In this document: piece after piece, positions 28,054 through 60,973 of the stretch
Layout: the number at the start of each line of letters is the position of its first letter
How positions within the stretch are numbered: position 1 is the stretch's first letter
From: Eubacterium limosum
GTDB taxonomy: Bacteria > Bacillota > Clostridia > Eubacteriales > Eubacteriaceae
DNA: 64,000 nt
Direction: 5' to 3'
NCBI RefSeq assembly: GCF_000807675.2
Contig: NZ_CP019962.1
Coordinates: forward strand, 4,003,157 to 4,067,156
The notes under the pieces: generated by a model
What the model was told of the DNA's origin: nothing
Databases searched by the model: none
Seen by the model: the letters and a program-made list of their open reading frames with translations, nothing else
Translations under genes and position numbers: made by a program

Positions 28054-28687
28054 CACTGTTCATCCATTTTTGACATATTTCGACACCTTGAATCGCATCG
28101 TCCGTAAAACCGTCTGCGCCTACTTCCTTACAGACAGCGGCATCCACTACACTACCGCCAATAATGATCTTCACCTGATCTCTCAGCCCTTCCTGTGTAA
28201 TGGCGTCAATCGCCTTCCGAAGATGGCTGATCGCACCGGTAAGTACTGCGCTGATCCCGACAATGTCTGGGTTAAGCTCTTTTATCTTTTGACAGAAAAT
28301 TTCAGGCTTTACATTGACACCAAGATCAACCACCTTAAACCCAGAAGTTGAGGCAACACTTTTAAACAGCGATTTTCCAATATCATGCATGTCACTCTCA
28401 ATCGTTCCAATAACGATCATCCCATTTTTCAGCGCTGTTTTTTCAATGGATTTTGAAATATCAATACAGTCCATCTCCATTATCTGTTCATAGAGAATGC
28501 CCGCCATCATTAAATCCGATAAGGTATACTCTCCAGTCTCGTACTTTTTTCCGATAATATCTAAAGCCTTATTCAATGCTTCCACGACCTTTTTCTTTTC
28601 GATTCCTGCCTTTATCAGACGTTGTATGGTTATAATAACCTTATCTTCATCCAGCTCAACGAAAAAGGATACAAGTGCCTCTAACAT
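28046..28687 (-). CDS. corrinoid (cobalamin-binding) methyl-carrier protein
   Basis: Protein of 213 residues of the MttC/MtbC/MtqC type. A helical N-terminal cap (1-85) is followed by a Rossmann cobalamin domain with the base-off ligand motif SDMHDIGKSLF (His about 102), then ISAVLTG and GGSVVDAAVCKEVGADGFTDDA. It carries the methyl group between an MttB-type enzyme and a second methyltransferase that passes it to tetrahydrofolate. Neither that second enzyme nor a RamA-type activator is encoded nearby. First gene of the operon with the two GntR genes. Confidence 0.93.
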   Translation of the reverse strand: MLEALVSFFVELDEDKVIITIQRLIKAGIEKKKVVEALNKALDIIGKKYETGEYTLSDLMMAGILYEQIMEMDCIDISKSIEKTALKNGMIVIGTIESDMHDIGKSLFKSVASTSGFKVVDLGVNVKPEIFCQKIKELNPDIVGISAVLTGAISHLRKAIDAITQEGLRDQVKIIIGGSVVDAAVCKEVGADGFTDDAIQGVEICQKWMNSDG

Positions 28688-50234: not shown

Positions 50235-50372
50235 TTACTTAAACAGACCAAAAACAAACAAAAACATATTTTTTTCATCTTCCTTTAATATTTCAGCCGC
50301 TTCAACACCTTGAAGAACTGGAAATTTTTCTAAATATGCTTCCCAATCAAATTCATATGTTTCATTATCCAT
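50235..50372 (-). CDS. 45-residue microprotein after UroD-fold gene 1
   Basis: Small reading frame of 45 codons with a strong AAAGGAGATTAAT ribosome site, 61 bases after the UroD-fold gene at 50434-51588. The product is acidic at the start (MDNETYEFDWEAYLE) and ends in a hydrophobic aromatic stretch FVFGLF at residues 39-44. The gene at 54574-54711 has exactly the same length, the same type of ribosome site, the same place after a UroD-fold gene, and FVWMLF at residues 39-44. I take them as homologous small partners of the UroD-fold enzymes. No known family recognised. Confidence 0.6.
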   Translation of the reverse strand: MDNETYEFDWEAYLEKFPVLQGVEAAEILKEDEKNMFLFVFGLFK

Positions 50373-50433
50373 ATTAATCTCCTTTATCAGATTCTACCGT
50401 TAACTGCCCCAAAAATTTGTATGCATAATAAAT

Positions 50434-51588
50434 TCAATATTGTCCATACTCACGAACTGTTTTTAAAACTGCTTTAAGATTTTCTGCAATTTGGCCTTTA
50501 AGGGAGAAAATAATTTTATCTGTACTGAAAATATATCCACCACCAGGGGCCATAATATCTAAAAGTCGTTTTGCTTCATCGATACATTCCTGTTTTGATT
50601 TTGTCTGAAGATAACTGATGGGGTAAAGCCCTGAAACAATATGGTTCTTTCCAACTATTTTTTTGATTTTTGAAGGATCTCCATATTCAAAGCACATATA
50701 AACTCTGCCCTCTAACTCTGCAAGATAATCAAGCTTATCGGACCAGTCATGTTCGCAAAAAATCCACGCCCCCATATTATTTTCAAAAATATATTTCATA
50801 AGCTTTTGGAAGGTTGGCCACCAAAAACGTTCAAACTGCTTTTTGTTTAAAAAAGGCGCCATATGAAGCGGAATAAAACATCGGGCATACTGATTCTGCA
50901 CAGGCCCAATAGCCGCTTTGCATGTAAGCGGCAGCAGCGCTTCACACGCTTCTTCTACCTTCTGTGGAAAGCGGCGAATATCTTTATTTATATTTGTAAA
51001 TGAACGTATTAAATCTGCAAGATAATCAAACGGAGCCTCTGTTCCGGCACCGGGTGGTAATACAGCATAACCATATTTATCCGTCATACAGTCAGCTATT
51101 TCTGCCATATATTGCATACTGTCATGATATGCTTTATAGGCTTTCGCAAAATTTAACGCACTAAAAATTGTGTCGTTTTGAATTGAAGGATATAATCTTG
51201 GAAGCAGTACCTCTGTCATAAAGTTATAGGGATCTTTTATAAACTCATCATATTCATCAACTTCCAGACAAGAAATTTCCGGATGCTGCATATATCCGGA
51301 GTCACTCATCACAAAAGATTTTGCCTGTAAAATCTGATAAAAACGAGGAGTTCGGTTGCTGCGTGTGAGTGGCAGCTTATCATTTTGAAATTCCCGAGCC
51401 ATTTTTTCATAAAATATTGGCCATTGTTTCATATCCCATTGCGCCGTTTTTAAATCAAGTTCTGCATATTCAATGGCGGCATCCCATGAAAAATCAATAT
51501 CAATCGGCACACGTTTAGGTACTTTTCCATCAAAAACATTTTTAAATAATTGAGTTCTTTCATCCTGAATCGTTCTATTACTTAACAT
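50434..51588 (-). CDS. UroD-fold (MtaA/MtvB-like) methyltransferase-family protein 1
   Basis: Protein of 384 residues with the uroporphyrinogen decarboxylase fold used by corrinoid methyltransferases: FDGKVPKRVPIDIDFSWDAAIEYA, VDEYDEFIKDPYNFM, FIPLHMAPFLNKKQFERFWWPTF, WIFCEHDWSDKLDYLAEL, CFEYGDPSKIKK and DIMAPGGGYIFSTDK. Conserved acids and His/Cys in FCEHDW are candidate metal ligands. Acetogens use such proteins for O- or N-demethylation, but no corrinoid protein is encoded in this island. It is a paralogue of 54722-55849. The substrate is likely the compound carried by the neighbouring BCCT protein. Confidence 0.82.
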   Translation of the reverse strand: MLSNRTIQDERTQLFKNVFDGKVPKRVPIDIDFSWDAAIEYAELDLKTAQWDMKQWPIFYEKMAREFQNDKLPLTRSNRTPRFYQILQAKSFVMSDSGYMQHPEISCLEVDEYDEFIKDPYNFMTEVLLPRLYPSIQNDTIFSALNFAKAYKAYHDSMQYMAEIADCMTDKYGYAVLPPGAGTEAPFDYLADLIRSFTNINKDIRRFPQKVEEACEALLPLTCKAAIGPVQNQYARCFIPLHMAPFLNKKQFERFWWPTFQKLMKYIFENNMGAWIFCEHDWSDKLDYLAELEGRVYMCFEYGDPSKIKKIVGKNHIVSGLYPISYLQTKSKQECIDEAKRLLDIMAPGGGYIFSTDKIIFSLKGQIAENLKAVLKTVREYGQY

Positions 51589-51632
51589 ACCAATCTCCTT
51601 TAACTTTTAAAAATCTCTTAAATCTGATTCTA

Positions 51633-53156
51633 TTAATCATTTTTGTCAATAAAAAATATTTTTATGGTTGAAATCACCATTAAAATAAACACTCCAAAAA
51701 CAATAATACCACCAACCGAGCCCATATATTTAATTGCTAACAGCCCTTCCTGTTCTTTTGTAAATAATATCATCGTACACGCAATAATTGAACAAAGCAG
51801 CCCCCAGGTTAACTTAACCCAAATCGGCGCTTCATTTTCCAGCCCTTCATCTTTTATGCACAAAGAGGAAACCGCAATAATATTACTGTCCGCCGATGTC
51901 GCAAATGATAAAATCAGCAGACCAAACATCAATGGAATCATCACCTTCGTAAATGGAAGATTGTTAAAGAAAGCACTCAGCGCACTAAGAGGACCAACCT
52001 GTTGAATAATAGGTACAAAATCGACGACACCTTCCATCTGCCAGTTGATTGCTGTCCCTCCCCACACACCAAACCATATAATCGCAAATAGTGATGGCAT
52101 AAAAAAATTCACGATCATAAATTCACGAATTGTTCTGCCATAAGAAATATTTGCCAGAAAGATTCCTGTTACCGGTGCATAAACAATCCAAAAGTTCCAT
52201 GTCATAATCGTCCACCATTTAACAAGGGTTTCTCCTCCAAGAATTCCTGTATCAAATGTCCACAAAGGCAAATTTTGCAGCCAATACCCAAAGGCTGTTG
52301 TTGTATGATTTAGAATAAATAATGTTGGCCCGCAGATAAACAATATAAAAAGCAATAAGTAGAAAATATATGTGTTTATATTCGCAAATACACGAACTCC
52401 TTTCTTTATTCCTCTTATCGATGAAAAAATAAAAACAAAAGCAAATAACATTGTAATAATAATTAAAATTGTTTGGGTTGTCTCGATTCCATATATTAGC
52501 TTCAATCCAGAGGCGATCAGTACAATACCACCACCCAAGCTGCCAGAAAGTCCTAAAACCAGCGCGATAACTGCCAGAACATCAATAACAGTCGCCAGCT
52601 TTCCGGCTTTTTTATCACCCAACAGAGGGATTAAACAGCTTGAAATACTAAGGGGTTTTTTCATGTTATAGCACATATAGGCAATACAAAGCGCACTGAC
52701 CGCTGCGATTGAATAGGGAAAAAACGACCATTCATGTATAATCCGTCCTAAAGCAAAGATAGCGGCTTCTTCACTTCCGGCTGCAATTCCAAAGCCATCG
52801 AGCTCACCAAAGATGTTTTTGAAATAAATCATTGGCAATGACACACCATAGGTTATTGTGCCAACTGCAATCCCCCCAGTTAATGACATCGCAAACCAAG
52901 ATTTAAAGCTGTAATGTGCTTGAGCCTTTTCTCCCCCAATACGAATTCGACCTTTTTTTGAAAAGCTCAAAATAATGCAAAGAACAAAGGTAATTGCTGT
53001 AATAATCTGATATAACCAGCCGAGTTTGTCCAAAGAAATGTTAAACAAATTTTCTAAGTTACCGGACAGCAAATCTCCTCTTATACACCCAAGAATCGCA
53101 GCACCTCCAACGACTGCTAACGCAGGAATAAAAACTCTTTTTTTGATCTTTTTCAT
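51633..53156 (-). CDS. BCCT-family transporter of the UroD island
   Basis: Membrane protein of 507 residues, about twelve helices, with GTITYGVSLPMIYFKN in place of the usual xxEPxxH segment and TWNFWIVYAPVTGIFLANISYGRTIREFM for the substrate-site helix. Divergence in the first motif from the BCCT protein at 20707 suggests a different quaternary ammonium or sulfonium substrate. Located 44 bases before UroD-fold gene 1, same strand. Confidence 0.9.
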   Translation of the reverse strand: MKKIKKRVFIPALAVVGGAAILGCIRGDLLSGNLENLFNISLDKLGWLYQIITAITFVLCIILSFSKKGRIRIGGEKAQAHYSFKSWFAMSLTGGIAVGTITYGVSLPMIYFKNIFGELDGFGIAAGSEEAAIFALGRIIHEWSFFPYSIAAVSALCIAYMCYNMKKPLSISSCLIPLLGDKKAGKLATVIDVLAVIALVLGLSGSLGGGIVLIASGLKLIYGIETTQTILIIITMLFAFVFIFSSIRGIKKGVRVFANINTYIFYLLLFILFICGPTLFILNHTTTAFGYWLQNLPLWTFDTGILGGETLVKWWTIMTWNFWIVYAPVTGIFLANISYGRTIREFMIVNFFMPSLFAIIWFGVWGGTAINWQMEGVVDFVPIIQQVGPLSALSAFFNNLPFTKVMIPLMFGLLILSFATSADSNIIAVSSLCIKDEGLENEAPIWVKLTWGLLCSIIACTMILFTKEQEGLLAIKYMGSVGGIIVFGVFILMVISTIKIFFIDKND

Positions 53157-53208
53157 AACATACCTTCTTTATAAATTTGGGGGAGAAAATTTCAAGTATC
53201 ACTATGTT

Positions 53209-54486
53209 TTACAATTGAACCTGTACTTCGCCTTCACCCTGTACATCTGTATCATTTTTTGCCCGAATCTTTTTAATGTCTTTAGCCACAAAAAGTCCTG
53301 CAATAAAAGCGATGATCAGGCAAATACAAGTTAATAAGAAGATATTAAAATATCCTCCTGCCCCATACTGGTCAATCCAGCCACCACAAAGCGAATAATA
53401 AAACGCATCTGTAATATAAGTAATAATTGACACAACCCCCATAGCTGTTCCCGTTAAGCGAACTGGTAGTTCAATTTCTGAAACTGGAATAAACATGATT
53501 CCCCAAACACCGACTACCCAGAAAGAAGCAAGTAAAAATACAACAATGGTTAATGTGAGTAATTCTGGAACGGTCGGAAAAATTATATAACAGATAAAAC
53601 AAATAGCACTGATAAAACAAGCAATCGAAATCACTTTGGTTATTGAAACTTTATCACGATTACGGTTGCCTAAAAAAGTACAAAACGGAGCCGCGACAAT
53701 TCCAATATTTTTATAAATAACTCCCAATGTCGTCGATTGTGCTGCATCTAATCCAAAGAATTCAACCATATAGGGCTGCATATAAATTAATGAAGTCGAT
53801 GCCAGATAAATGCTAAAACAAATCACGCCAATCAACCATACATTTCTAATTTTCAAAACATTTTTTACATCGGAAAATGTAACAGGATTTTCTTTAGCTG
53901 TATCCTTTATTTCTGGTTTAAAAAAGAACAAAATCAACAATGCTCCGAGTAAATTTAATGCTGAAAAAGAAATTAAAACAATTTGCATGCTTAATCTAAC
54001 CGAGGAGATACTTGCAATCAGCCAAATGCCCATCGCACTAATTGGTATCGTTGAAACATTTCGCACAATTTGCCGGAACGTAACAAGCTTTCCCTGCTCT
54101 TCGTTTGTTCCAAGAAGACGTGTCATTTTCTGATTTGCATTAAAAACAAAACCACAGGCAAATACCGCATTCAAAAGATACAGCGCTATCATAATGCTGA
54201 AACTCGGAAGCACTGCAATTCCAAAACCGGTTAAAGATGTCCCCATCCAGCCGATGACCAGTAAAGTTTTTGTGTTTACCCTGTCTGCAAGCCACCCCCC
54301 AGGAATATACATGATCAGTTGCATGATACCATACAATGACAGCAATAATCCAATTTGTGTGTTTGAATAGCCCGTAGAATTCTGAAACGCTACATAAAAA
54401 CTTGAACAAGCATAGGTCACCATAAACATCATCTGCCAGCCAAGCCCGGCCCCGGCAACGGCAATATACCTTTGTACTTTTTTCAT
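53209..54486 (-). CDS. MFS transporter of the UroD island
   Basis: Twelve-helix carrier of 425 residues with GYSNTQIGLLLSLYGIMQLIMYIPGGWLADRVNTK and GTNEEQGKLVTFRQIVRN; the latter matches GTEEEQGKLFGISEAMRG of the MFS protein in the MttB island, so the two are related. An upstream TTG (54498) is an alternative start; I chose the ATG at 54486, which begins MKKVQRYIAVAGAG. Ribosome site weak in both cases. Confidence 0.85.
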   Translation of the reverse strand: MKKVQRYIAVAGAGLGWQMMFMVTYACSSFYVAFQNSTGYSNTQIGLLLSLYGIMQLIMYIPGGWLADRVNTKTLLVIGWMGTSLTGFGIAVLPSFSIMIALYLLNAVFACGFVFNANQKMTRLLGTNEEQGKLVTFRQIVRNVSTIPISAMGIWLIASISSVRLSMQIVLISFSALNLLGALLILFFFKPEIKDTAKENPVTFSDVKNVLKIRNVWLIGVICFSIYLASTSLIYMQPYMVEFFGLDAAQSTTLGVIYKNIGIVAAPFCTFLGNRNRDKVSITKVISIACFISAICFICYIIFPTVPELLTLTIVVFLLASFWVVGVWGIMFIPVSEIELPVRLTGTAMGVVSIITYITDAFYYSLCGGWIDQYGAGGYFNIFLLTCICLIIAFIAGLFVAKDIKKIRAKNDTDVQGEGEVQVQL

Positions 54487-54573
54487 ATTCGCACCCAATT
54501 CTTCTGATATATATTTAGGTTCTTTTAAGGTGAATCTATAAGACCTTTCGTTTTATTACTCAAGCCGATTGGA

Positions 54574-54711
54574 TTATCCAAACAGCATCCAGACAAACGC
54601 AAGAATTTTGTCTTCATATTGCTGACGCTGTTTGTTTTGCTCTCTCTCAAATTCAGTTATATCGTCATCCTCTACTAAATAATTCGTATAAAATTCCGAA
54701 GAAAATTCCAT
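54574..54711 (-). CDS. 45-residue microprotein after UroD-fold gene 2
   Basis: Small reading frame of 45 codons, ten bases after the UroD-fold gene at 54722, with AAGGAGATTATT before the ATG. Acidic, charged middle (VEDDDITEFERE) and a hydrophobic C-terminus FVWMLF at residues 39-44. It is the counterpart of the microprotein at 50235-50372. Similarity outside the C-terminus is modest (EF near the start, YL then E, E-D-K before the last stretch). Function unknown; a small subunit, membrane tether or chaperone of the UroD-fold enzyme is conceivable. Confidence 0.6.
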   Translation of the reverse strand: MEFSSEFYTNYLVEDDDITEFEREQNKQRQQYEDKILAFVWMLFG

Positions 54712-54721
54712 AATAATCTCC

Positions 54722-55849
54722 TTAATAATTTGTGTTTTCAATAATATAATTACATATCGCCCTGAAATTTTTGATATTCAAATCTCCCAGAGCCATTGGT
54801 GATTTGTCAAAACCAAAAATGTACTTGCCGCCAGGCGCCATAACATCAATGAATTTTTTCAACTCGTTAATGCACTGTTCTTCCCGTAAGCTACGTGCTG
54901 TATTCAATGGAAAGAGCCCCCTGAGAACATACTTTTCTCCTAAATTTTTCTTAAGAAATTCAGGATTCCCGTATTCAAATGTAAACTCCGTCAATGGAGG
55001 CAGTTCCTTCCAATAATCCAGAAAACGAGTACAATCTCCTTCTAAAAAAAGTGAAATCGTATATCCTTTTTTTGTTATCTCATCCATTACCTGTTTTAAG
55101 GAGGGCCAATACAATTTTCCAAACTGCTTCTCACTCATAAACGGTGGCATATGTATCGGAAACATAACTTTTGTTTTATCTGGAAACCCGTCTGCAGTTG
55201 CAATTTTAATGCACAACGGGACCAATGCCGATGCTGCTTCTGCAATTTTCTCAGGGCATCGCCGCATATCTAATGAAATCCCAGAAAAGGAACGCAGTAA
55301 GTCCGCTAAAACATCAAAAGGCGCAACACACTCATGTACAGGTATGTTAATAAATTCATGTTCATCAATAACCTTATCGATTTCAGAAAATATCTTTGAA
55401 TAAGTATCATGATAAACATTCAGCGCTTTAGCAAAAACAAAAGATCTTCTTTCTGAAGCTGTATCCAATGCAGTATACAAACACGGCAGACACTTTTGTA
55501 CCATTACTTTATAAGGATCCTTTATAAAATCATCATATTCTTCCACATACAAACTCTGCATTTCAGGATGCTGGATATTTCCATTACTTCCCATAATAAA
55601 TGCCTTAGCACCTAAAAAATCATATAAAGCAGGCAGTCTCCATGAATAAACAACTGGGCAAAAATCACTTGGAAGCATAGAAGAGAATTTCTGGAATGTA
55701 GGATAGATATATTCTGGATTCCATTGAGCCAGTTTAAGATCATACCCACAATATTGCATTGCTGCTTCCATACCGATTTTTAAATGAATTGGTACTCTCT
55801 TGGGTTTCTTTCCTTTGTAAATATCCATAACCATTTTATTTCTTTCCAT
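54722..55849 (-). CDS. UroD-fold (MtaA/MtvB-like) methyltransferase-family protein 2
   Basis: Protein of 375 residues from the ATG at 55849, or 390 from 55894; neither start has a strong ribosome site, although AAGGGGG lies between them, so the start is uncertain. Landmarks: KGKKPKRVPIHLKIGMEAAMQY, VEEYDDFIKDPYKVM, MFPIHMPPFMSEKQFGKLYWPSL, LFLEGDCTRFLDYWKELP, FEYGNPEFLKK and DVMAPGGKYIFGFDK. Clearly a paralogue of 50434-51588, but the metal-site segment reads LEGDC instead of FCEHD, so the two may bind different substrates or act as a pair. First gene of the operon, divergent from the PucR-type regulator. Confidence 0.8.
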   Translation of the reverse strand: MERNKMVMDIYKGKKPKRVPIHLKIGMEAAMQYCGYDLKLAQWNPEYIYPTFQKFSSMLPSDFCPVVYSWRLPALYDFLGAKAFIMGSNGNIQHPEMQSLYVEEYDDFIKDPYKVMVQKCLPCLYTALDTASERRSFVFAKALNVYHDTYSKIFSEIDKVIDEHEFINIPVHECVAPFDVLADLLRSFSGISLDMRRCPEKIAEAASALVPLCIKIATADGFPDKTKVMFPIHMPPFMSEKQFGKLYWPSLKQVMDEITKKGYTISLFLEGDCTRFLDYWKELPPLTEFTFEYGNPEFLKKNLGEKYVLRGLFPLNTARSLREEQCINELKKFIDVMAPGGKYIFGFDKSPMALGDLNIKNFRAICNYIIENTNY

Positions 55850-55965
55850 TTGAAGCTCTTTTATCTTAAAAACCCCCTTGTAAATAAAAGTCATTGACTT
55901 TTAATCGCTAAATATTTTATACTAAATAATATATCTTATAGTTATTCAAAATCTTTCGCGCATAA

Positions 55966-56127: not shown

Positions 56128-57576
56128 ATGAAACTTAACCTTGAAATGATTGCCAATGTTCTTTATAAAGAAAAAATCTTTTTGCATAATAAAAGCAGTC
56201 TTCCTCCCTATCTGAATAAAGAAGATATCTATCAGAATAAAGAGAGCCTATTTCAGTTTCTAAATAACAATTGGTGTCTTACTACACAGGAGGGGACATT
56301 ATCTTTTTACGGACTATCTGATAAACAATGTATCGAATCCGTGTCCAAGGCTTTTGACATTTATTACAACTGGTTCGAAAAAATAGTATACTTTTTATTT
56401 GAAGATAATGACATACAAAGCGTTATCGATGAAACATATACATTATTACGCAATCCTATGTTTTATCTGGATAGCGATTATCGGATCATAGGGATCACGC
56501 TCCAATATTTAAATGACCCAAAACTCGATAAGCACTGGAGTGCTTTACTAAAAAACGGTCATTTTTCTTCCGAATGGCTTTACTATATGGGCAATCGAGA
56601 TAATTATACTGTAAAAAAAATATTAAAAACAGGAGAATACTATACCGAGAGAAACTTCTTTGAATATAACCGTTACTGCGACGATGTTTTTGTGGACGGA
56701 ATACGAACGGGATTTCTCGAAGTTTTAGAATATGAAACTACTTTAAATTTTGGCCACTTTTGTTTGCTGAGGAAACTGACGGATTTGATTAAAATCAAAG
56801 ACAAAGCACATAAAAAGGAGCTCAGCCATTACACAACGTCTAAGCAAATTATTAATATTCTTAATGGAAATATTTATGATAAAAAGCTGGTATCTTATTA
56901 TTTATCTTTAAAGGGATGGCAAGAATGTGATTGTTACGCCGTAGCCGTACTCTCTCCAACACATAGCGAATCGAAAAATTTAAAAGGCATTATTAATAAT
57001 ATAAAAATAATTTTAGAAAAACAGTTTAACAATAAAATTTTATGTATTGAATTTTCTGACAAAATTATATTAATTTTAAACCAAACACTTCTAAATAAAG
57101 ATATTTCCATAAGCTTATCACAAATTGCTCAAACTGAAAAATTATTTTGTGGTGTTAGCAATAAATTTAACGGCTTTTTTCTTTTATTCGATTACTATAC
57201 TCAAGCGATCTCCACAATAAACTATGGAATAAAAACAAGACATGATACTACTTTTTTCTCTTTTTATGATCATGCCGTAAATCTGATTATCGGACATAAC
57301 GATCTGCCTGCTAATATTTCCATGTGCCATCCTGATTCTATTGAGCTAATGAGATATGACAATGAAAACAATACAGATTTTCTATTGACCTTAATCTCTT
57401 ATATCCGCAACAATTGCAACCTGCAAAAAACAGCCTCAAGTCTATTTATTCATAGAAACACCTTAATCTATCGAATGCAAAAAATAAAATCACTTCTTCA
57501 TTACGATTTAGACAATCCTTATACGAAAGAGTACCTCATGATTTCATACCGTATTATACAACAAAATATCAAATAA
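56128..57576 (+). CDS. PucR/CdaR-type transcriptional regulator
   Basis: Protein of 482 residues. The C-terminal HTH of the PucR/CdaR family is clear: YIRNNCNLQKTASSLFIHRNTLIYRMQKIKSLL (about 425-460). The middle has a GGDEF-derived-like segment (about 265-370), and the N-terminal 200 residues are an unrecognised sensor region. Divergent from the UroD/MFS/BCCT genes and the probable regulator of them. AAAAGGAG ribosome site. The coding sequence is notably AT-rich. Confidence 0.85.
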   Translation: MKLNLEMIANVLYKEKIFLHNKSSLPPYLNKEDIYQNKESLFQFLNNNWCLTTQEGTLSFYGLSDKQCIESVSKAFDIYYNWFEKIVYFLFEDNDIQSVIDETYTLLRNPMFYLDSDYRIIGITLQYLNDPKLDKHWSALLKNGHFSSEWLYYMGNRDNYTVKKILKTGEYYTERNFFEYNRYCDDVFVDGIRTGFLEVLEYETTLNFGHFCLLRKLTDLIKIKDKAHKKELSHYTTSKQIINILNGNIYDKKLVSYYLSLKGWQECDCYAVAVLSPTHSESKNLKGIINNIKIILEKQFNNKILCIEFSDKIILILNQTLLNKDISISLSQIAQTEKLFCGVSNKFNGFFLLFDYYTQAISTINYGIKTRHDTTFFSFYDHAVNLIIGHNDLPANISMCHPDSIELMRYDNENNTDFLLTLISYIRNNCNLQKTASSLFIHRNTLIYRMQKIKSLLHYDLDNPYTKEYLMISYRIIQQNIK

Positions 57577-57693: not shown

Positions 57694-58581
57694 CTATATT
57701 CTTTTGATTCCAAACGTTCCTGGAATTTCGTTGAATGTCTCTATCTCAGACTGGGGCAAAAGCGGTGCATCCCCCATTGGATAAGCGATTCCCAAACCTT
57801 CATATTTTACCTTCCCCAATTTATGGTATGGCAATAAGGATACCTCTGTGATATCTAATTCTGCCAGTTTCTCACATATTCTATGGATATCTTTTTTTGA
57901 TGCGTTAAAACCGGGAATTATTGGAACACGCACCAGTATTTCCTGACCATTTTGTCTTAGCTTTTTTAAATTTTCAGTAATTTGCGCCAAATCTCCCCCA
58001 GTCCATCTCCTGAAAACATTTTTATCCCAGTGCTTATAATCACAGATAAAAAGATTGGTTTTATCCATAGTGACCGCTATATTTTTCCACGGAATGCATA
58101 AGCAGGTTTCTACAGCTGTATGTATTTCTGCCTGCGTGCAATACCCAAACAGCTCATTCACAAAAGCAGGTTCTAAAAGAGACTCGCCGCCACTAACTGT
58201 AACGCCTCCACCGGAATGTTGATAGAAAGCCTGATCTCTTTTTATTATTTCAAAAATTTCTGCTACCGTGCGATCTTCCCCCATCAAAGTCAGTGCTCCT
58301 GAAGGACAACGCTCAACACATAATTTTTGTCGGCATTTTGCACACAATAGAAAATGATTTGTTCTATTTTCCAGTACTAAGCCCTCTGTGCAAGCCTTTT
58401 CGCAAGACCGGCAGCCAATACATTTATTTTTTTCAAAAAATAACTCGGTTTCGCTTTTTTGAGATTCTGGATTACAACACCAGCGGCAGCGCAGAGGGCA
58501 CCCTTTTAAAAAAACAACTGTGCGGATACCCGGTCCGTCATGGACCGAGTATCGCTGTAAATTAAAAATTTTTGTTTTCAT
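57694..58581 (-). CDS. glycyl radical enzyme activase (radical SAM)
   Basis: Protein of 295 residues: radical SAM motif KGCPLRCRWCCNPES (CxxxCxxC, about 27-35), two ferredoxin-type clusters (CIGCRSCEKAC; CAKCRQKLCVERCP), GGGVTVSGGESLLEP and VRVPIIPGFNAS. It generates the glycyl radical on the enzyme encoded eight bases upstream. The ATG at 58581 gives the usual MKTKIFNLQRYSVHDGPGIRT start; the open frame runs further into the previous gene without similarity. Confidence 0.94.
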   Translation of the reverse strand: MKTKIFNLQRYSVHDGPGIRTVVFLKGCPLRCRWCCNPESQKSETELFFEKNKCIGCRSCEKACTEGLVLENRTNHFLLCAKCRQKLCVERCPSGALTLMGEDRTVAEIFEIIKRDQAFYQHSGGGVTVSGGESLLEPAFVNELFGYCTQAEIHTAVETCLCIPWKNIAVTMDKTNLFICDYKHWDKNVFRRWTGGDLAQITENLKKLRQNGQEILVRVPIIPGFNASKKDIHRICEKLAELDITEVSLLPYHKLGKVKYEGLGIAYPMGDAPLLPQSEIETFNEIPGTFGIKRI

Positions 58582-58588
58582 AATAAAC

Positions 58589-60973
58589 CTATAACTCAAA
58601 TTGTGTACGCGCAATGATGTCTTCCTGAAGTTCACTGTTTAAAGATGTAAATAACGCGCTGTAACCAGCGACCCGCACCATAAGGTCTGCATAATTCTCA
58701 GGGTGCTTCTGGGCATCCCGCAACGTTTCATTCGATAAGACATTATACTGCGAATGCCAGCATTTTAAATCTCCTGACGCACGTAAAACCGCTGCAAATT
58801 TTGCTTCTTCTTCGCGGGTTTGCAAAGTTGCCGGATTAATACGAATGTTTAAAAGCTGTCCTCCTGTAAACAACTCATTGGAAAGCTTTCCGACTGACTG
58901 AAAAATAGCCGTAAGGCCATTTTTTAATGTATTTCGCGATGGGGATACACCTTCTGCAGTAGGCTCCCCTGCCTTTCTGCCATCAGGTGTAGCGCCGACG
59001 GATGCCCCGCAAGGAATATTGGCTGTAATTGTTACCGTAGAGCTTGTATAACAACAGCCGATGGGGCCTTTACCGTCTCTCAACGTTTTATATTTTGAAA
59101 TCTCTGTTACATAATAATCAGACAATTCTTTTGTGATCTCATCGACCGTATCTACATCATTGCCATATTTTTCTGCCCCATTCAGTAAAAGCGTTCTTAT
59201 AAACTCGCCACCTTCTTCTTCAAAATTTGTTTTAAGCGCGTGACTAAGCGCCTGTGGTGTAATTCTTTTTTCCTCAAACACCAGTTTCTGGATGGCATAC
59301 ACTGCATTACCCACATTCGGAATACCCACAAGGGTACCGCTGATCATGTCATAAATGGTTCCACCCTCCTTAATACTTTTCCCTCTGTTTAAGCAGTCCT
59401 GCACCAGCAAAGAACAAAACGCATCCGGCACTAAAGCATTCATTGCCATTTCGTTTATATTGTCTGCAATAACATGGAGCTTCATATAATGTTCAATTGC
59501 TTTCTGATAGCCATTTTTAATTTGTTCAATGGTCGTACATTCTTCCAAAAGTGTTAAACCGTCCATAATTTTTTGTCCACTTTTACGGTCAATACCTCCA
59601 TCTAAAACAATTTCAAGAATACGCAGTAAATTAATTTTACTCTTTCCATTCGCTCTATAGCCCCATTTTCCCGGCACTTGAACCTCTGTACAGCCCATTG
59701 TAGAATAATTGACGGCGTCTTCTGGTAATACTCCACGATGCAGCAGAGATGGAATAATCACCTGATCATTGACAAATGACGGCATGCCGAGTCCTTTTTT
59801 CACTATTTTTACAGCATGGTTCAAAAAATCATCGGGTGTTCCTTCATGTATACGTATATAAATATTAGGTTCCGGAAGCCTTATCTCTTCCAGCATATCA
59901 AGACACATCCACGAGAGTGTATTAACTGCGTCGCTTCCATCGCTCTTTTGCCCGCCCAAACATATATTTTGATAGGTAGGGTAACCCAGCTGGGTCTGTG
60001 TTGTTTTCCATGATCGCAATTTATTGTTGCCAAAAACTTTCAAGTAAAAGCATCCCAGCAATTCTTCTGCTTCCGTCTGTGTCAATATATTATTTTCAAT
60101 ATCTTTCTTGTAAAAAGGATATAAATACTGATCAAAACGGCCAAAGGACAACGAGTGTCCGTTAGACTCAATATGGAGAATAACCTGAACAAACCATACA
60201 CACTGAAGCGCTTCCGCAAAGGATTCGGGAGGACGATGAAGTAATGCATCACAACGTTTTGAAATGTCTTTTAATTCAGAGCTGCGCACTGAACCTTCAC
60301 ATCTTTTCTGTTGTTCTATGGCCAGATCCCGATAACGCGCAATAAAATCGAAGCAGCCCTTTAAGATGGATTCACAAGCGCGATAGAAGGTGAATTTTTC
60401 AAGATCTTTTGGCTCCGTTAATACAAGATTGCCGATAAGCGTCTTAACCCTTGAATACAATCCTGAAAAACCACATTCTAATACCATTTCATAATCTGGG
60501 ATTATATGGCCTTCTCCTGACGTAATATTTCCCTGCCAGCCCAGTACCCCAATTTTTATATCTTCTAAAACAGCTTCAGGCTGCATGGCTGTCGCTCTTG
60601 CTTTTAAGGTTTTATCTTTCCACCAAGGCAGCACTTGCCTTAGTTTTTCTTTATCCTCCTTCTTTATGATAAAGCGGTCACTTGTCCTGTGTTCAAAATC
60701 TTCCATTTCACTTAATACGAACTCATAGTCATACTCTGGAAATAAAGGCGCTGCCCTGGGTACACGCGCCTGGTTCCCCACCAGAAGCTCATCATCACCA
60801 ATATAAATCTGCATGCCACTTAGAACATCCGCCAATGCTTTTGCGCGTTTTTCAACAATTGGATATTTCTCATATTTTTGATAAGCCTCTGTTAATAACA
60901 AGCACCGATCCACACAAATTTCCGGTACCCGATCAATCAAATCTGAACGAATACGTTTAAAACGCTCCCTCAC
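58589..60973 (-). CDS. glycyl radical enzyme, eliminase/dehydratase type, substrate unknown
   Basis: Protein of 794 residues. The glycyl radical motif RVAGYSALF lies near the C-terminus (Gly770), and the active-site cysteine motif is MGCTEVQVPGKWGY (Cys428, Glu430). The Cys-x-Glu pair is the mark of dehydratases and lyases (glycerol, propanediol, choline, isethionate types) and excludes pyruvate formate-lyase, which has adjacent cysteines. However, GCTE followed by PGKWGYRANGK is not the glycerol or choline signature (GCVEP). The neighbours (kinase, DeoR regulator) suggest a polyol-like substrate. GTG start with a GAGGGGGAG site. Confidence 0.9.
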   Translation of the reverse strand: MRERFKRIRSDLIDRVPEICVDRCLLLTEAYQKYEKYPIVEKRAKALADVLSGMQIYIGDDELLVGNQARVPRAAPLFPEYDYEFVLSEMEDFEHRTSDRFIIKKEDKEKLRQVLPWWKDKTLKARATAMQPEAVLEDIKIGVLGWQGNITSGEGHIIPDYEMVLECGFSGLYSRVKTLIGNLVLTEPKDLEKFTFYRACESILKGCFDFIARYRDLAIEQQKRCEGSVRSSELKDISKRCDALLHRPPESFAEALQCVWFVQVILHIESNGHSLSFGRFDQYLYPFYKKDIENNILTQTEAEELLGCFYLKVFGNNKLRSWKTTQTQLGYPTYQNICLGGQKSDGSDAVNTLSWMCLDMLEEIRLPEPNIYIRIHEGTPDDFLNHAVKIVKKGLGMPSFVNDQVIIPSLLHRGVLPEDAVNYSTMGCTEVQVPGKWGYRANGKSKINLLRILEIVLDGGIDRKSGQKIMDGLTLLEECTTIEQIKNGYQKAIEHYMKLHVIADNINEMAMNALVPDAFCSLLVQDCLNRGKSIKEGGTIYDMISGTLVGIPNVGNAVYAIQKLVFEEKRITPQALSHALKTNFEEEGGEFIRTLLLNGAEKYGNDVDTVDEITKELSDYYVTEISKYKTLRDGKGPIGCCYTSSTVTITANIPCGASVGATPDGRKAGEPTAEGVSPSRNTLKNGLTAIFQSVGKLSNELFTGGQLLNIRINPATLQTREEEAKFAAVLRASGDLKCWHSQYNVLSNETLRDAQKHPENYADLMVRVAGYSALFTSLNSELQEDIIARTQFEL

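Follow-up and report, generated by a model that had tools for sequence, protein, structure and literature searches.

Short proteins encoded behind UroD-fold methyltransferase genes of Eubacterium limosum: a proposed detached C-terminal domain

Two genes for UroD-fold, methyltransferase-I-like proteins in a 64,000-nucleotide (nt) stretch of the genome of Eubacterium limosum, an acetate-producing gut bacterium (contig NZ_CP019962.1, positions 4,003,157 to 4,067,156; hereafter the window) are each followed by a frame of 45 codons. Do these frames encode proteins, and if so, what have the proteins to do with the enzymes whose genes they follow? Acetogens use methyltransferases I to demethylate plant, drug and pollutant molecules, and the substrates of these enzymes are mostly unknown. 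An initial annotation of the window had suggested a co-inherited enzyme plus small subunit. We propose that the microproteins are the detached C-terminal domain, or small subunit, of a UroD-fold corrinoid-dependent methyltransferase I and that they bind the UroD protein encoded in front of them; our estimate of the probability of this reading is about 0.84.

The two microproteins and their counterparts in the genome

Both frames are on the minus strand (50372-50235 and 54711-54574) and start with ATG. Microprotein 1 (50235-50372, 45 residues) is the proposed small subunit of UroD protein 1 (50434-51588, minus strand, 384 residues), and microprotein 2 (54574-54711, also 45 residues) that of UroD protein 2 (54722-55894, minus strand, 390 residues). 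The distance between the stop codon of the UroD gene and the microprotein start is 61 nt in the first pair and 10 nt in the second. Upstream of both frames stands AAGGAGATTA; the ribosome-binding site AAGGAG is read on the minus strand at 50379-50384 for microprotein 1 and at 54718-54723 for microprotein 2, where it shares bases with the UroD stop codon (54722-54724). The two microproteins share 18% identity and their UroD proteins 37%, and both UroD proteins exceed the PF01208 cut-off of 23.9 bits (52.4 and 31.0 bits).

The frames, with their ribosome sites, are present as initially described and stand out beyond chance. Among the 40 window open reading frames (ORFs) of at least 200 residues, taken from both strands with spurious ones included, only the two UroD genes are followed within 70 nt of their stop by an ATG frame of 36 to 60 codons with a ribosome-site motif; none of the remaining 38 has such a frame. 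Two details of the first description have to be qualified. The length of 45 codons is exact for both frames, but its equality is a coincidence, since lengths in this genome range from 40 to 51. The hydrophobic ends are likewise present from residue 39 (residues 39-45 are FVFGLF-K in microprotein 1 and FVWMLF-G in microprotein 2), but the motif FV[FW]xLF derived from them is too narrow and represents one form of a looser hydrophobic end.

Because PF01208 alone misses several paralogues, the census of the genome was made by homology search with UroD protein 1. It yielded 34 UroD-fold paralogues in 4.42 Mb. Twenty-four of them, the same number that passes the short-frame test genome-wide, are followed by a separate ATG frame of 40-51 codons with a ribosome-site motif, starting 8-61 nt past the stop. 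The other ten have no such frame, and their own chain extends about 60-71 residues beyond the end of the common core. That a single methyltransferase-I-like family has 34 members in a 4.4 Mb genome may be compared with the six putative O-demethylation systems that PMC12915777 cites for E. callanderi.

When a profile of the 24 short proteins was run against the whole genome in six frames at E values up to 10, it gave 30 matches, all of them at UroD paralogues and none away from the 34. These comprised 23 of the 24 separate frames (that of L031 was missed) and seven tails that were absent from the profile, the weakest of the latter with E between 0.1 and 1.3. The tails of the ten paralogues were also compared with a profile that combines split proteins and tails of other genomes, among them close orthologues of some of the ten. 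Nine of the ten tails matched (E at most 0.0023 for 34 sequences), and the tail of L033, with E 0.2, fell short of a match. A profile built from separate proteins only matched seven of the ten (E at most 0.002 for 10 sequences). Five other URO-D places in the same genome, which belong to the UroD superfamily proper and have the core family (PF01208) in common with the window proteins, gave no tail or microprotein match better than chance (best E 0.4). Two UroD-family genes of the genome (L222:1466-2846 and L223:1274-2711) end in a sequence that, by eye, resembles a thioredoxin-like tail (..VQHLPSIYING..), and the genes behind them were labelled, again by eye, as CobW-like GTPases.

Microprotein 1 was recovered by an own-genome leave-one-out profile, scoring above 2000 shuffles, and was also matched in the whole-genome search, in which its own row is part of the profile. 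Microprotein 2 was matched with E 5.7e-4 (for 24 sequences) by a profile made from 28 short proteins of other loci, which contains separate short proteins only and leaves out the Eubacterium-named loci L154, L155 and L160.

As the initial annotation had supposed, family libraries miss these proteins: none of the 24 short proteins matched NCBIfam, and the four separate microproteins that were scanned against Pfam had no hit above the cut-off. PHROGs matched one of the 24 (E 0.0035). A hit of one relative to UPF0154 (E 0.0046) was rejected as an identification, its 17.3 bits lying under the cut-off of 27.1. The initial annotation also took the small protein to be undescribed, and searches of an open-access library, in which most articles of subscription journals are missing, showed no description of it; what we have appears to be a domain, often detached and so far undescribed, of an enzyme superfamily that is itself known.

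The short proteins as a set are under purifying selection, with ratios of nonsynonymous to synonymous substitution rates (dN/dS) of 0.070, 0.058 and 0.062 in comparisons with three congeners (19, 16 and 13 pairs). The sample consists of loci with a profile match, pairs below 60% identity were dropped, and two of the pairs with genome G025 are paralogue matches. In 18 of the 24 split pairs found in this genome, the ribosome-site core is no more than 9 nt away from the first base of the UroD stop codon. Over all split pairs the count is 104 of 135, compared with 7 of 89 for fused genes and 1 of 20 for other genes of the window. As far as sequence can tell, a ribosome site that lies near the stop codon of the enzyme gene, or overlaps it, is the layout typical of translational coupling. 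The pairing of the genes, the conservation of the short frames and selection at the protein level all argue for the co-inheritance of enzyme and putative small subunit that had been suggested at the outset.

Separate and fused forms

Conserved short frames were found after related UroD genes in other genomes as well. The short-protein profile matched 21 of 40 genomes of the family and 19 of 398 in a sample of the phylum, and a broader profile matched 23 of the 398, each of these counts including the E. limosum genome itself. At 55 of 58 profile-found loci, five of which are from the E. limosum genome, a UroD core is either part of the chain itself or encoded within about 200 nt upstream. L038, L054 and L082 depart from this rule. 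The match at L082 (genome G313) was dismissed as a false positive caused by a tandem repeat of RFYPTYEELK in a short frame. In a second locus set, partly repeating the same places, a UroD core was beside or within 29 of 30 (exception L253). Desulfovibrio is represented by one short contig of a metagenome-assembled genome (L096), which may be misbinned.

A search driven by the UroD core was run with 10 query rows, and the best 80 of 186 candidates were taken; as a fused row stood first among the queries, fused relatives are favoured. It led to 79 named loci with 117 UroD ORFs, of which two do not reach the C-terminal end of the core and two others are truncated at the edge of a contig, leaving 113 genes in 78 loci. 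Seventy-nine of these genes have a tail of at least 60 residues, 31 have a downstream short protein recognised by profile (28 at E<0.05), two are followed, at the right place, by a short frame that the profiles did not recognise, and one, from Formimonas, has neither. None of the five fused relatives scanned against PF01208 reached the cut-off.

The profile of the 28 separate proteins matched 58 of the 79 tails at E<0.01 and 67 at E<1, and with shuffled tails the corresponding numbers were 0 and 12 of 1580. The common C-terminal pattern is approximately [FM]-x-S-[KE]-Y-Y-x-T-W-E-E-Y ... Y-E-E-x-x-F-x-F-[IV]-M-x-L-L. Judged by these sequence comparisons, the separate short proteins and the fused tails are one domain, and the natural fusions indicate that the microprotein corresponds to a C-terminal domain of the enzyme. 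None of 224 tails or short proteins contains a membrane-span-like stretch.

In a tree of 136 cores the state, fused or split, changes at least four times, three of the changes being forced by starred branches and one resting on L033. A tree of 102 cores, from which L033 and other rows were left out (34 of the 136 dropped as long branches or near-copies) and for which a better model was used, has at least three changes of state, two of them forced. The two pairs of the window are not sisters in the 136-core tree. The "duplicated gene pair" of the initial annotation is not supported: the two pairs, which have diverged within a family of 34 members, are not the product of a recent duplication.

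An AlphaFold model was made of a natural fusion from Anaerovirgula multivorans (L123:7335-8699; 455 residues, 82 sequences). Its mean predicted local distance difference test score (pLDDT) was 95.0 and its predicted template modelling score (pTM) 0.92. In blocks of ten residues, pLDDT was 88-98 in the core, 66 and 76 in the linker (residues 391-410), and 94-96 in residues 411-455. The tail is predicted as a short helix (418-423) followed by a long helix (430-453) that runs nearly to the end, and the model is confident in this part.

Among proteins of solved structure, sequence comparison found a single relative, CdmB, the chloromethane methyltransferase I of Acetobacterium dehalogenans (PDB 9rui, 9rul, 9ruo; PMC13222342), which matched UroD protein 1 with E 1.9e-27 as a single sequence (9rui) and with 6.6e-40 when a profile was used. 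CdmB has a similar UroD-fold core, which could be aligned from residue 107 of the window protein to the core end, but the solved chain ends where the tail or microprotein of the present family begins. Three CdmB-like genes (100, 72 and 68% identity) lack both a tail and any recognised partner; behind the CdmB-like gene L227 there is a 37-codon frame, 59 nt downstream and lacking a clear ribosome site, which was never run against the profiles. According to PMC13222342, CdmB is related to MtvB, OdmB and VdmB, aromatic O-demethylase methyltransferases I of the same superfamily as the window proteins. The accessible parts of PMC13222342 and PMC12915777 make no mention of a small subunit in the MtvB, OdmB and VdmB systems; the latter source places four-component aromatic O-demethylase systems in Eubacterium as well.

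Proposed role and alternative explanations

In the arrangement that we propose, the microprotein would have a gene of its own, immediately downstream of that of the enzyme and arranged as is typical of translational coupling, and would bind the preceding UroD protein, replacing the tail that other members carry in-chain. The domain would consist of a short helix containing W/Y residues and a long helix ending in a hydrophobic run at the C-terminus. The separate form would dock in the same place as the fused tail and would be needed for stability or activity; it may help to close the substrate cavity, or contribute to a dimer face or to the face towards the corrinoid protein. Probable substrates are methylated compounds taken up through transporters encoded nearby, in the window those of the BCCT and MFS families, and the methyl group would go to a corrinoid protein, usually one encoded elsewhere.

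The surroundings of the paralogues bear on the last two points. The corrinoid cap domain PF02607, with 22 matches in the genome, is found within 5 kb of only three of the 34 paralogues, so most corrinoid partners would be encoded elsewhere; the cluster of the window pairs contains no corrinoid protein gene, the nearest PF02607 match being about 22 kb away. Fifteen of the 34 are followed by an ORF with at least three predicted membrane spans (the window's P-type ATPase, counted among these ORFs, is probably unrelated), and 13 have no same-strand ORF of at least 150 residues within 600 nt. From these sequence contexts we infer that the paralogues would be substrate-specific methyltransferases I, many with their own importers and with corrinoid partners mostly elsewhere.

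Several observations weigh against the microproteins being a general small subunit of these enzymes, or limit what can be concluded. Microprotein 2 was missed by the leave-one-out profile of its own genome, its homology being weak, and 21 of the 79 tails were not matched by the split-only profile at E<0.01. The external profiles did not recognise the short frames of L030, L031, L032 and L034 (E 0.05 to 6 and 0.2 to 1.3); these frames may constitute a second subtype. The profile matches L038 (G025) and L054 (G005) stand without a UroD gene, perhaps as remnants of lost pairs, and the Formimonas UroD gene (L165, 967-2221) has neither tail nor short partner. The coding selection that holds for the family as a set could not be demonstrated for the two window microproteins alone, which differ from their counterparts in G023 by one synonymous and one nonsynonymous change and by one and three, respectively, too few for a test. 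The AlphaFold model covers one natural fusion and not a separate pair, and in a direct coupling analysis of 224 paired sequences (effective number 124) the core-tail scores fell on variable or gappy columns, were judged to be noise and were not used.

As an observation in its own right, a more divergent short-frame subtype, weakly or not recognised, possibly follows more distant UroD genes at L030, L031, L032, L034, L138, L142, L143 and L150.

Among the alternatives, a possible but unlikely one accepts the same detached domain and assigns it the job of docking the methyltransferase to shared corrinoid proteins, so that many enzymes would feed few common methyl carriers. The scarcity of PF02607 near the paralogues, most of which need a partner encoded elsewhere, would suit such a function, and so would CdmB, which has no tail and whose cluster cdmBCA encodes its own carrier (PMC13222342). 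However, L027 and L028, which have a separate short frame, and L033, whose tail is unproven, do adjoin a corrinoid gene. Moreover, mean column identity is 25% for the short proteins and 40% for the enzymes, a variation exceeding what would be expected of a common docking face, and the coupling analysis was too noisy to place a face.

The remaining explanations would deny the microprotein a part in the enzyme. Its small size, its hydrophobic C-terminal run and the two matches without an adjoining UroD gene would be compatible with a small protein that has a function of its own (toxin-like, membrane-active or signalling) and whose gene just accompanies those of the enzymes, but we consider this very improbable: the 224 sequences are devoid of membrane-span-like stretches, UroD genes are beside or around all 30 own-genome matches and 55 of the 58 loci, and in the one fused version modelled the tail is predicted to fold with the enzyme. 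A leader peptide or regulatory frame controlling a downstream transporter gene is extremely improbable. It could account for the 15 paralogues followed by a putative membrane protein, but selection acts at the protein level, 13 paralogues lack a nearby same-strand ORF, and the fusions already contradict it, a related sequence being inside the enzyme chain in many relatives (the 58 tails matched at E<0.01). The chance that the frames are random ones over-read by eye is practically negligible. Short ORFs are indeed common, with 134 frames of at least 40 residues between 38000 and 64000, but none of the 38 other long window ORFs passes the test passed by both UroD genes, the dN/dS of the family is 0.06-0.07, and the frames are conserved across genera; the explanation is already contradicted by these results.

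If the detached-domain reading is correct and the enzyme has two chains in a large part of the family, single-gene expression, knock-out and structure work can mislead, and the natural fusions offer a direct test of the role of the subunit. Disruption of three methyltransferase I genes of Eubacterium limosum, which may or may not be members of the present family, is reported to have left etoposide demethylation comparable to that of the wild type (PMC12915777, section 7). For E. limosum and Acetobacterium woodii there are ribosome profiling studies (PMC6260860, PMC7873083, PMC8407422), and genetic tools for E. limosum have been published. A more far-reaching version, which we regard as doubtful, is that obligate, interchangeable small subunits complete the expanded methyltransferase I family of acetogens and other Bacillota and, as a helix pair on the side of the barrel, link a large number of substrate-specific enzymes, all provided with transporters of their own, to a small set of corrinoid carriers used in common. 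In that case enzymes made without the subunit would look inactive, which would help to explain why so many paralogues have no known substrate.

The gene run in the window

The two pairs belong to a minus-strand run of six genes in the order UroD protein 2, microprotein 2, MFS transporter, BCCT transporter, UroD protein 1 and microprotein 1. The MFS transporter gene (53209-54498, minus strand; PF07690, 107.8 bits) is directly 3' of microprotein 2, and the gene of the BCCT-family transporter (51633-53156, minus strand; PF02028, 384 bits) is between the two pairs. From the BCCT family one might guess that a quaternary amine is one substrate of the window pairs. A divergent gene for a PucR/CdaR-type protein (56128-57576, plus strand; PF13556, 65.6 bits) adjoins the run and, by its position, is the probable regulator of the six genes.

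A glycyl radical enzyme (PFL-like, 794 residues) and its activating enzyme, encoded at 57694-60973, also adjoin the UroD run; the former passes the NCBIfam subfamily model PFL2-3 and is below the cut-off of every named substrate class listed. The PF02607 cap domain about 22 kb from the UroD pairs is located at approximately 28475-28684 on the minus strand, and the protein carrying it is a possible shared methyl carrier.

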